Positions 53,943 to 59,066 of a stretch of 64,000 nt of DNA are shown here, piece after piece (within the stretch, counting starts at the first letter, position 1; each line of letters starts with the position of its first letter). The notes beneath the pieces were generated by a model. The model made no database searches, had not been told where the DNA came from, and was given only the letters and a program-made list of their open reading frames with translations. The DNA is taken from contig JAJRYV010000117.1 of the NCBI GenBank assembly GCA_024275575.1, positions 1 to 64,000 of the forward strand, in the 5' to 3' direction. This DNA comes from a bacterium. GTDB taxonomy: Bacteria > Zhuqueibacterota > Zhuqueibacteria > Zhuqueibacterales > Geothermadaptataceae. The translations under genes were made by a program, and so were the position numbers.

Positions 53943-54699
53943 GACAACCTCCATAGGTGTTTTTGTGATACGTATTAAGTGAAAAGCCACCTGCACAAAG
54001 CAGGAAAAATTGAATTATTATGTTAAATGATACTTTTTATTCCATATCGCCGGTATCGTCGTGAAAAGAATAAAGCTAACATAAAAACAACCTTGCCAAA
54101 CGCAACCAAATTATACCGAAGATACTATTTTTTTTCATCGCTGCAATTGCCTTGAAAAGGCGTTTTTTTCTTTCAAAAAATGTACCAGTCAACAACAACC
54201 TAAATGCGTTAACAAAATGCAATTAAATCTTAATTTAATAAATGATTATAGCTACCTCGCCTTAGTTGATAACTATCCGCCGCATCGTGAATTTCTTAAA
54301 ACCCGTAATGCATTGAGAAATTTCGCAGGATTGCAAATTTGAACGGGTGGTACCAATCGGGCATGGAAATACGCACTATATACGAATTAACACTTGTAAC
54401 GAGCTATAATTAATGAATTAAAGGAGATGCAAAGAGCGCTGCGGGAATGATGAAAAAAATGTTAAAATAGAGAGAAACACGATCTCTCGTTTTACGAGGT
54501 GCAGCATGCTTTTACTGATAAATAGCGCCTGACCGAAAATTTATGCGCGCGTATCATTTTACTGCATGTTGGCTGAAAAGTACAATTGCATTGCCGGCCT
54601 TCGGTTCTGAATGATTTTATCGAGGTTAGAACGATTGATTTCGATTAAGAATTATTTCTAATTCTCGATCAAACAGAAACAAATACCAGGGATTGAACT
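53943..54699. other. Long AT-rich intergenic region before the DGR
   Basis: About 750 bp without a gene I can support. It must hold the gdhA promoter on the minus strand and any promoter for the DGR target on the plus strand. A short frame after aaggagatg at 54421-54429 has no clear coding character. The ATG at 54700 is preceded by AGGG about 8 nt upstream. Confidence 0.5.
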
Positions 54700-56955
54700 A
54701 TGCCTGATGTCACTGCAGCGATTATCAAAACACTGCCCGGCCTGGCAAAATGGGGTTATAAAAAATACCAGCAAAGCCATACTGATTTTACAAACATCGC
54801 CAGGGCAACCCTCACGACTGTTCTCATAAAACGTAATGAGAATTTTCATATCGTCCAATAAGCAGTCGATAGCCTGTTCACCGACCCCGATATGCAAGAA
54901 TGGCTCAATGGCGCGCAACTGCCGGTGGATTTGACCTTCGAAAAACTTGCCGGCCGCGTGAAACTCGATCCCTGGGTGGTGCGGGAATTTCTCGAATCTT
55001 TTACTCGCGAAATCACCACTCATCCGACCCTGCGCGAGGACTTGAATCTGCGGCGTTCGGGTGAGCTTGTTGAAACCAGCCGCAAGCATCTCAAATTGAA
55101 AGAACAGGAGCTTGCCGGCCCTGCACGGGAACGCCAACAGGCCTTCGCCGAATACCGCATGAAAGTGCGCGAAACATTCTCCAGCATCATGCTTTTCGGT
55201 GAACGTTCTCCCGGCGGTGAAGAAAATGTATTCGAGCGTATGTCTGACATCCGGCGCGGTTTTGTCCCCCTGAACCTGAAACCCTGGCCGAATGAAGAGG
55301 TGCACCAACAGCCATCCTCACTTGGAATCGATGACCTGTTTTTCAACAAGCGGCCGCGATTAATGCTCATTCGGGGGCTGCCGGGCGGCGGAAAAACCAC
55401 CTTGCTGCGCTATCTCGCCTGGCGTTTTACTGCGGCTGACAGCACTATGCTGCCGGTCTACATCCGTCTGAAATTTCTGGACCTGAGCACGGAATCCCTG
55501 CTCGATTTCATCCATAGAGAAGTCAGCGCCTTGTGGACAAATCCAGCCATTGACGACGCTTTGCGCCACAAGGATTGCTTTCTCGAAAAACCAATGCTCA
55601 TGCTGCTCGATGGTATCGATGAAATCAAGAGCGCTTCAAGCCATGCAAAGTTTGCCGAAGCATCAAATACGCTGGCTTGCAGGGAAAAAAACGGTGCCAA
55701 ATTATCGTTACCTCGCGCCCTATTGAACTCAAAAAGGAAGATTACCCGGAATTCGAAGCATTTGACCTCGATAAACTCACAAAGCCGCTGATCGCCGACT
55801 ATGTACAAAAATGGTTTGGCGCCGGGCAGGACAAAATTGATCTGCTATGCTTTCAGCGCCGATGGTGACGCTGCATTCATCAATCGCCGTAGCGCCCTTT
55901 ATGAAGCCTGTACACAGCGTTTATTGGCACGCATGTACCGGCTTGATGATGAAATGCCGGTGAAAATGAAAAAAACCACAAACCCTTGCCATGCTCAAAG
56001 ATCTGGCCCTGTGCTTTTTTCTCTGGCAGGAACCGGAGTTTCCGGCAGATCAGGTCAACGTGCTCGGTCGGCGTGTGCTCTCCGCCGACGCCCTGAACAT
56101 CGCCTCTGAAACGCTGGACGACTGTGCAGCGCACGACCGGACTGATTCAGTGCGCACAGGAGGGTTACACCTTTGTTCATCGCTCATTATGGGAATACTT
56201 TACCGCCAACGCTTTGCATACAAAAACGAAAGATGATGCGAAATTCATCATCAAACATGCGGCTAATCCGGATTGGGAAGAGGTGGTGCGCCTCTATGCC
56301 GGTTTGCTGCAAAACGAAGACGAGGTGAAAAAACTGATCGTCGGTTTATGGCAAATAAACAAACCGCTGGCACTGCGTGTTTCCACCGAAGTGGTTATGG
56401 ATACGGCAAGCTTGCTCCAACCCTTGCTTGATAACGAAAGCGGCGGTAACCAGGATATGTTGTTGCTCATCGATTTTATCGCTCAATCCCTGCCGCTGGT
56501 GCTGGGTGAAGAAGCACGCAACAAACTGGTTGCTGAAACCCTGCGCATTCTGTTTTTTGATTGCGCCGTAACCGATTGCGAAGTGCTCTACCATGCCCAG
56601 ATGCTGTTGGAAAAACAGGGCATGCAGCCACTCGAACCCGGCGGGTTCATATACAATCTGCTTAAATTGGACCATGCTGTCGAACGCCAGCGTAACCTGC
56701 TCGCCGATCCACAAAATCTCTTTGAATGGATCGAGGTGCCAGGCGGCGACCCAGGCGGAAAATCTCAACCAATTGGGGCTGGCAAATATGCTGGGCAACG
56801 TCTGGGACTGGTGCTATGATTGGTTTGGTGATTCTAAAATATCGGAAACCGTGCAGGAAAATCCAACCGGTACAAAATACGGCCGTAACCGTGTTTTGCG
56901 GGGTGGCGCGTGTAACATCAATGCATATAATCTGCGATGCGCCGTTCGCCACTAA
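54700..56955 (+). pseudogene. DGR target gene: NACHT/STAND ATPase with C-terminal FGE-fold variable domain, disrupted
   Basis: Pieces in one order but several frames encode an N-terminal helical region, a NACHT ATPase with Walker A GLPGGGKTTLLRYLAW and Walker B MLMLLDGIDEI, IIVTSRPIELK, a helical part with EGYTFVHRSLWEYFTANAL, and a C-terminal formylglycine-enzyme-like fold (MLGNVWDWCYDWFGD, RVLRGGACN). It is broken by a TAA at 54859-54861 (CAA-TAA context), by frame changes near 55690, 55860, 55965, 56120 and 56760, and by a loss of roughly 130 residues of the FGE fold. The ATG at 54700 has AGGG upstream. The final exon-like part contains the variable repeat. Such targets are putative antigen-sensing conflict proteins. 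Confidence 0.85.
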
Positions 56956-57003
56956 AACACACCCACGCTTCGAAACCTCAATGTGGGTTTTCGTAGTGTT
57001 CAG
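56889..57003 (+). repeat. DGR variable repeat (VR)
   Basis: This 115-bp segment at the 3' end of the target aligns without gaps to the TR at 58490-58604 (offset +1601). There are 12 differences; 11 are at TR adenines (for example TR A at 58511, 58513, 58519, 58527, 58551, 58554, 58568-58570, 58578, 58579). One is G to A (58556). Coding effects include N to I, N to Y, N to H and N to L. The AAG codon became TAA, ending the target frame at 56955. The last 24 bp match the TR exactly and would be the initiation-of-mutagenic-homing region. Confidence 0.95.
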
Positions 57004-57049
57004 GACGGCTCTGTCACGCTTTGCGTCCTTTTTACTCTTTTTAACTTGT

Positions 57050-57076
57050 TCCCGCGCAGCGGGATAATTTTTTTTT
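57050..57076 (+). terminator. Terminator-like hairpin downstream of the VR
   Basis: TCCCGC/GCGGGA (57050-57055/57059-57064) forms a 6-bp stem with loop GCA, followed by TAA and a long T run. It lies 47 bp after the VR and immediately before avd. It can act as a terminator or, like hairpins near the VR in other DGRs, help target recognition. Confidence 0.75.
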
Positions 57077-57080
57077 AAAA

Positions 57081-57425
57081 ATGGCACATTCTGAAAATAT
57101 TCTTACATTAATGTACGATTTTTTGCTTTATCTTTTCCCTGAGCTATCCAGATTCCCTCGTGATCACAAGTTTGTCTTGGGTGACCGCGTTCAAAAATTA
57201 GCGTTGGATATCCTGGATGATTTTATCGTAGCTTACTATTCGAGAAATAAATTGGACAGGCTACGGGAAGCAAATTTGAAACTGGAGCAACTACGCTTTC
57301 TCATCCGCCTGAGTCACGACCTTAAATGCTTGAGTCATAAAAAATACGGTATCATTTCGAGTAAGATCAATGAAATTGGCGGCACTATCGGAAACTGGAT
57401 CAAGTCAATAAACAAAGAGCGATGA
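57081..57425 (+). CDS. avd: DGR accessory variability determinant, Avd-like four-helix protein
   Basis: The 114-residue product is all-helical with the Avd pattern: hydrophobic first helix (LTLMYDFLLYLFPELSRFPRDHKFVLG), DRVQKLALDILDDFIVAYYS, then LKLEQLRFLIRLSHDLKCLSHKKYG. Avd proteins form basic pentamers that bind the DGR RT and TR RNA. Its stop overlaps the RT ATG in an ATGA arrangement. Unlike its neighbours it is intact. No Shine-Dalgarno is evident behind the terminator hairpin, so its translation is unclear. Confidence 0.92.
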   Translation: MAHSENILTLMYDFLLYLFPELSRFPRDHKFVLGDRVQKLALDILDDFIVAYYSRNKLDRLREANLKLEQLRFLIRLSHDLKCLSHKKYGIISSKINEIGGTIGNWIKSINKER

Positions 57426-58516
57426 AAACCTATAATAACCTGTTTTCGCAAATTTACTCGTTCGAAAATTTACTGCATGCCGCAAGAAAAGCACGTTTGG
57501 GCAAGCGGTTCCAGCACTATGCCGGACGATTTTATGCTAATCTGGAGTATGAGCTTATCGCGCTACAAAACGAGCTGCAACAGAAGAGCTATCAGCCAGG
57601 AGAATACCGGACCTTCACAATTTTTGAGCCAAAACAACGCATGATTTCCGCTGCACCGTTTCGTGACCGGGTGATGCATCATGCCTTATGCAATGTCATC
57701 GATTCATTATTCGAGAAGAAATTTATTTTCGATAGTTATGCCAATCGTAAAAACAAGGGTGCTCACAAAGCTGTGTTGCGCTATCAGCACTTCTGCCGTA
57801 AAAACAAATACGTCTTGAAATGTGATCTTCGAAAATACTTTCCATCTATCGGCTAAGAAATTCTCAAGCAACAAACCCGACGAACGATAAACTGTCGTGA
57901 GACACTGTGGCTGATTGATCGCATTATTGACGGAAGCAATCCGCAAGAGCCAGTTTTGGAATATTTTGCCGGGGACGATCTCTATACGCCGTTGATACGC
58001 CAACGTGGCTTGCCCATTGGCAATTTGACCAGCCAGTTTTTTGCGAATGTGTACCTAAACCCCTTTGACCATTTTATCAAGGAGCAGCTCGGTATTCGCT
58101 ACTATCTGCGTTATGTTGATGATTTCGTTATTTTAGGGCAGGATAAACGCCGGTTACACTATATCAAATGTGAAATTGAGGAATATTTGGATTTTCTTCG
58201 CTTACGTTTGCATGAGCATAAAAGCCAGGTTCGCCAAACGGCACAAGGCGTGACATTTCTTGGATTTCGTGTTTTTCCAAGATTCCGACTTTTACCACGA
58301 AAAAATATCAACCGTGCCCGTCGGCGCTTGAAGCACTTGCAAAAGAAATACAGTATGGGCGAAATTGATCTGCAAGTTGTCAGTCGCGCAGTAAATGGCT
58401 GGAACGGACACGCTGATTTTGCAAATAGTTATCGCCTGCGGCAAAAAATTTTCGCGGAATATACTTTTAAAAGGTTTAATTCCGAAGCTCCGTGTTTTGC
58501 GGGGTGGCGCATATAA
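57422..58516 (+). pseudogene. DGR reverse transcriptase, interrupted by one in-frame TAA
   Basis: The frame is open from 57422 to 58516 (365 codons) except for a TAA at 57854-57856 (codon 145). The sequence is a DGR-type RT: KCDLRKYFPSI with the first catalytic Asp, [18 protein letters not shown] (the DGR form of motif 4) and YVDDFVILG (codons 231-234), then a thumb region with GFRVFPR. The stop follows KYFPSIG, where relatives have a conserved acidic residue, so the 144-residue product would lack YVDD. Its C-terminus overlaps the first 27 bp of the TR. Whether the TAA is real or an assembly error is open. Confidence 0.9.
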
Positions 58517-58604
58517 CAACAATGCAAATAATCTGCGATGCGCCGTTCGCAACAAGAACACACCCACAAATCGAAACAACAATGTGGGTTTTCGTAGTGT
58601 TCAG
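58490..58604 (+). repeat. DGR template repeat (TR)
   Basis: This 115-bp segment lies at the 3' end of the RT gene and overlaps its last codons. It contains 35 adenines, of which 11 differ in the VR; its remaining positions differ at only one. Read in the target frame it encodes an Asn-rich stretch ([17 protein letters not shown] and so on), mostly AAY codons, which give no stop codon on A mutation, with a single exposed AAG at 58554-58556. Confidence 0.95.
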
Positions 58605-59066
58605 TACGCCGCAAATGGATGCCAGAATCCAGGCGCTCACGGCCTCCCGGAGTGTGCATGCCGACGTCCAGGAAATTAGACCTGTCTTGTTTTCCGCTTC
58701 ATCGAAACGGGACGAACATATAAACCGCACAGGCACGGCTAGTAGGCTGTCGAACGTCGTGTCTGTTTTATTTATTAAATTGTTCTGCCGTGCAAAGCAA
58801 TCGGCTCTATTCAGTAGGCAAATTGCAGTGAGAACCACATCGTTTATTGGATAGCAACATGCAATGATTTACCCAAAGCACCTGTATATTTGTGTAGAGT
58901 CGATAATCGAATGTCTTCAGTATGATTTTCAATCCGAGAAAATGCAGATTTTTGGTCTCGCAGTTGTGAATTTGGCAAGCTTCGACAAGTAGGCGATTCG
59001 GCTTGTAGCTGAGGAAGAAAATTTGCATTTTACCGATACATTCCTGTATTGTAATATCAAAGTAAC
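58605..59066. other. Region after the TR without a recognisable gene
   Basis: A plus-strand frame continues the target-like reading of the TR to about 58679 but has no start of its own. Beyond it there is AT-rich sequence without a supported gene up to the toxin-like remnant. Confidence 0.4.

Follow-up and report, generated by a model that had tools for sequence, protein, structure and literature searches.

A dead DGR carries a probably DGR-made stop codon in the variable repeat of its NACHT-FGE target pseudogene

The window, a 64,000-nucleotide stretch of a bacterial contig, contains a DGR whose parts lie in the order target with variable repeat (VR), avd, reverse transcriptase (RT) and template repeat (TR) (Table 1). 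Judged from its sequence, the element is a dead DGR and not a working one. The initial annotation had placed a TAA of the VR opposite an AAG codon of the TR, and the VR/TR register confirmed this pairing. It is quite likely that this is a cellular DGR that died recently, the VR stop having probably been made by the DGR itself and then left unpurged and unrewritten.

Table 1. Features of the decayed DGR, in window coordinates
Feature	Coordinates	Strand	Evidence
Target pseudogene: NACHT NTPase and C-terminal FGE-sulfatase/C-type-lectin domain	54664..57021	+	frameshift-aware alignment, tblastn, Pfam
VR	56889..57007	+	direct repeat with A-specific differences
TAA stop in VR, opposite TR AAG	56953..56955	+	VR/TR alignment
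6-bp hairpin TCCCGC-GCA-GCGGGA, then T run	57050..57064	+	fold; downstream of VR
bAvd accessory protein, frame intact	57081..57425	+	Pfam bAvd 1.8e-23; PHROG 'Avd protein of DGR' 1.1e-27; 78% identity to G004
DGR reverse transcriptase, dead	57422..58516	+	tblastn, alignment to DGR RTs, PHROG
TR	58490..58608	+	direct repeat; 85% identity to G004 TR
AAG, sole stop-capable TR codon	58554..58556	+	codon enumeration in VR frame

Direct-repeat comparison of VR and TR (offset 1601) showed 89% identity over 119 nt, with differences almost only at TR adenines. Eleven of the 13 mismatches were at adenines (5 A>T, 3 A>G and 3 A>C), giving a mismatch rate of 11/36 A sites vs 2/83 non-A sites (Fisher p 2.8e-5), and the two non-A mismatches were a G>A at TR position 58556 (VR 56955) and a T>G at the 3' edge (58605/57004). 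Since just 2 non-A differences were found in 119 nt, compared with 5 in 104 nt in the decayed pair L097, the last homing appears to have been fairly recent. L097 itself (G007:C2, VR/TR at 5836-5939/6560-6663) differs at 14 A and 5 non-A positions and has just a fragment of an RT match nearby, and it is likely another decayed DGR. No further TR or VR was found in the window's own genome (stated completeness 97.7%), which has one TR and one VR only, and the TR used as a DNA query across the order detected homologues in G004, G007 and G012 only.

The RT adjoining the TR is of the DGR type, its two halves matching PHROG 1423 (8.4e-54 and 6.2e-58), and an Avd, the accessory protein of those DGRs that have one, is encoded beside it. 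A DGR from a genome of the window's own family, G004:C260, has the same part order, a homologous target and similar Avd, RT and TR (78%, 69% and 85% identical, respectively), but it differs in that its 925-aa target is intact, its RT is intact and contains FPSIDH, and both its TR codon and its VR codon are AGA. A hairpin similar to that downstream of the VR is found at the equivalent position in G004, and it may act as a DGR target-site hairpin or as a terminator.

Alignment with other DGR RTs showed that the RT is not catalytically competent. The catalytic Asp of motif A is changed to Gly (GGC, 57851-57853, codon 144) and the following codon is a stop (TAA, 57854-57856, codon 145), so that the motif reads FPSIG and then ends, whereas related DGR RTs contain Asp followed mostly by His (FPSIDH). 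Among the alignment columns that are invariant in the 22 other DGR RTs, the window RT deviates only by this change from Asp to Gly, suggesting that the RT died recently. The clustered base changes at motif A may represent a single complex mutation. An RT-family search of the window's own genome (stated completeness 97.7%) detected no second DGR RT and thus no candidate for action in trans, since the sole other RT-family match is an RT-Cas1-like ORF beside RAMP-type ORFs. This 784-codon open frame (L069, on the 7697-bp contig G000:C21) contains an RT and a Cas1-like C-terminal part and, as assigned by eye from its translation, is probably a type III CRISPR RT-Cas1.

The target is broken at many places. 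Its lesions were called by frameshift-aware alignment against the intact homologue of G004:C260, an alignment that is weak at the N-terminal end (before about 54760). An in-frame TAA was detected at 54859, frameshifts near 55675, 55969 and 56120, and two losses of codons accompanied by a change of frame, one of ~24 codons near 55839 and the other of ~120 codons near 56757, which removed most of the FGE core. Pfam matched NACHT to the first piece and its FGE-sulfatase model (positions 169-236 of 255) to the last piece; the VR thus lies in an FGE-sulfatase remnant with a broken frame, and not in the C-type-lectin/FGE domain of an intact target. By this alignment, about seven independent lesions affect the target, and it would be wrong to say that the VR stop, one among them, ends it. 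The initial annotation had ended the target at 56955, but a TAA at 56569 terminates the same frame before the VR stop is reached, and several breaks in the gene precede the VR. At the end of the target, window positions 57022-57024 are TGC where the G004 target has its natural TGA stop, and a frame without the VR stop would continue to a TAA near 57076.

When the 22 TR codons that contain an A were enumerated in the VR frame, AAG proved, as stated earlier, to be the only one from which a stop can be reached by A changes alone. The mutable codons listed previously (AAY, ACA and GCA) are indeed present, but the list was incomplete, as TAT and CGA also occur. A-only mutagenesis of AAG produces TAG as the sole stop, and not TAA; TAA therefore needs one extra event, either a G>A in the VR or an A>G in the TR after the last homing. 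The third-position difference (G vs A) is not of the DGR type, and its direction is ambiguous with a single VR. Thus, of the A to T plus G to A origin proposed initially, the A>T is plausibly a product of mutagenic homing, given the mismatch rates at A and non-A sites, but the G>A is a separate event that cannot be credited to the DGR or assigned to either repeat. From the sequence of the two repeats, the template codon at the last homing may have been AAA, AAG or AGA.

We compared the codon aligned to the AAG among related TRs. It is AGA in the three nearest TRs (L052, L021 and L097), AGG in nine TRs (L009, L010, L013, L014, L054, L062, L066, L067 and L068) and AAC, AAT or TAT in the remaining relatives. 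No relative examined has AAG at the homologous TR position, and across the paired TR/VR set no stop was found in the VRs at a sense codon of the TR. The initial annotation had looked to related strains for AAG repeatedly turning into a stop, a pattern for which these relatives provide neither the codon nor the outcome. Other TRs do contain lysine codons, for example AAA in L010 and L079. Near the 3' ends of the TRs in L007, L013, L014, L064 and L065, a lysine AAA repeatedly stands opposite AGA in the VR, or opposite GGA in the case of one of the two VRs of L007. This may be a fixed difference at the TR end from which homing begins.

Where the AAG-equivalent position holds AGR, its first A was kept in 10 of 12 VRs (L010, L013, two of L014, L021, L052, L062, two of L066, and L097) and changed in L068 (GGG) and L054 (TGG). 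The first position of AAC was changed in 181 of 269 cases in relatives, a difference from the 2/12 of AGR with a Fisher p of 0.0006, which is rough because the VRs of related elements are not independent. By context, adenines in CAG were changed in 4/28 cases (14%) and those in CAA in 180/280 (64%). The low change at the first A of AGR would reflect either sequence context or selection on arginine. Sorted by the next base, the TR adenines of the relatives differed in 14/57 cases before G, 270/442 before A, 176/351 before C and 56/174 before T, a distribution in which context and selection are not separated.

We propose that this DGR formerly acted on a NACHT STAND protein, whose C-terminal FGE/C-type-lectin domain it diversified. 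The TR codon opposite the stop probably once encoded arginine (AGA or AGG), by comparison with the nearest relatives, before drifting to a lysine-type codon that is now AAG; mutagenic homing, and not ordinary decay, then probably wrote the A>T into the VR. The stop could have been reached as AAA to TAA, as AGA to TGA and later TAA, or as AAG to TAG followed by a G>A point change. Starting from AGA, the TR would have changed to AAA, homing would have turned AAA into TAA in the VR, and the TR would then have changed from AAA to AAG; starting from AGG, the TR would have changed to AAG, homing would have produced TAG, and the VR would have changed from TAG to TAA. Each of these two routes takes two changes outside homing, and routes without homing need at least three, a hand parsimony count that does not pick one route. 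With the target already a pseudogene or about to become one, selection would not have purged the stop, and an RT without its catalytic Asp and with a stop of its own would not have rewritten it.

Six independent lesions were counted in the target (VR stop excluded) vs one in RT and avd together. Under equal age, a split at least this uneven has a probability of 0.17, so the count no more than hints at an earlier death of the target than of the RT. Any order in which the target and the RT died and the VR stop arose goes beyond what these lesion counts show.

That the stop arose by ordinary pseudogene decay after RT death, through A>T plus G>A or through A>T alone from AAA, is unlikely. The locus is decaying, and one of the two changed bases in the stop codon is a non-A difference, both of which fit such an origin, but the scarcity of non-A mismatches relative to A mismatches makes a decay A>T at exactly this codon much less likely than one made by homing. 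It is very unlikely that the AAG or the TAA codon stems from a misassembly or a sequencing error. The data are a single assembly without reads, so errors are possible at single lesions, and one target frameshift adjoins a run of seven A; against this, many long ORFs elsewhere in the window, the longest of 1154 codons, are intact, and several lesions are concentrated in the DGR.

The initial annotation had presented the stop as self-inactivation of the target by a single badly chosen TR codon, in which case an active DGR would have turned the risky codon into a stop in a working target, function would have been lost and the locus would then have decayed. The sole stop-capable codon of the TR is exactly the one that became a stop, and the first A of AAG is in the CAA context, which is changed far more often in relatives than the CAG context of their arginine codons. 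In a live DGR, however, the VR is copied anew from the TR at the following homing event, and a VR stop is not permanent; at the present locus it would likewise have been reversible while the RT worked. The target also carries six other independent lesions, namely the earlier in-frame stop, the three frameshifts and the two frame-changing deletions, among them the deletion of the greater part of the FGE core; motif A of the RT lacks its catalytic Asp and is interrupted by a stop, and nothing dates the VR stop as the earliest lesion. We therefore regard self-inactivation as the first event as very unlikely. An extended version, which we likewise regard as very unlikely, is that TR drift from AGR to AAR opened the path to a stop and moved the adenine from CAG to CAA context, upon which the DGR knocked out its target and thereby set off the decay of the entire element.

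The risk of stop codons in TRs has been considered before, and AAY codons are a standard stop-avoiding choice (PMC6328139, PMC4159848). The idea of selection on TR codon choice against stops, raised by the initial annotation, has already been published there. In a reconstituted BPP-1 DGR, measured in 2026, AAA and AAG were converted to stops at ~1%, vs 6.36% and 7.08% expected, and codon choice was discussed (PMC12875486). That work quantified the same AAG-to-stop risk, but it did so with a phage RT in E. coli read as cDNA, whereas the present case is a natural decayed locus. The degenerate DGR loci of Thiohalocapsa PB-PSB1 (PMC10907252) similarly have key machinery missing or pseudogenized and have NACHT or other STAND targets with C-type-lectin/FGE domains; there, however, each class keeps one complete locus, whereas no other DGR RT was found in the window's genome. 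The DGRs of Treponema denticola (PMC4891356) also have FGE-type targets, hypervaried lysine TR codons and reported truncated targets, but they have up to seven target genes per TR and complete systems in nine isolates. The locus is a further decayed case of an already described kind, and the idea of stop risk is already in the literature.

Because the gene is wrecked elsewhere and the RT has lost its catalytic residue, the VR stop is a remnant of the decay and does not show that the element destroyed itself. Before a stop in a VR is taken as a sign of self-inactivation, the remainder of the target and the RT need to be checked. A step from AGR to AAR in a TR would replace a rarely changed adenine by a strongly changed one and open a path to a stop. 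With an RT lesion in the catalytic motif and a heavily decayed target, the locus clearly illustrates how a cellular NACHT-FGE DGR dies in nature.
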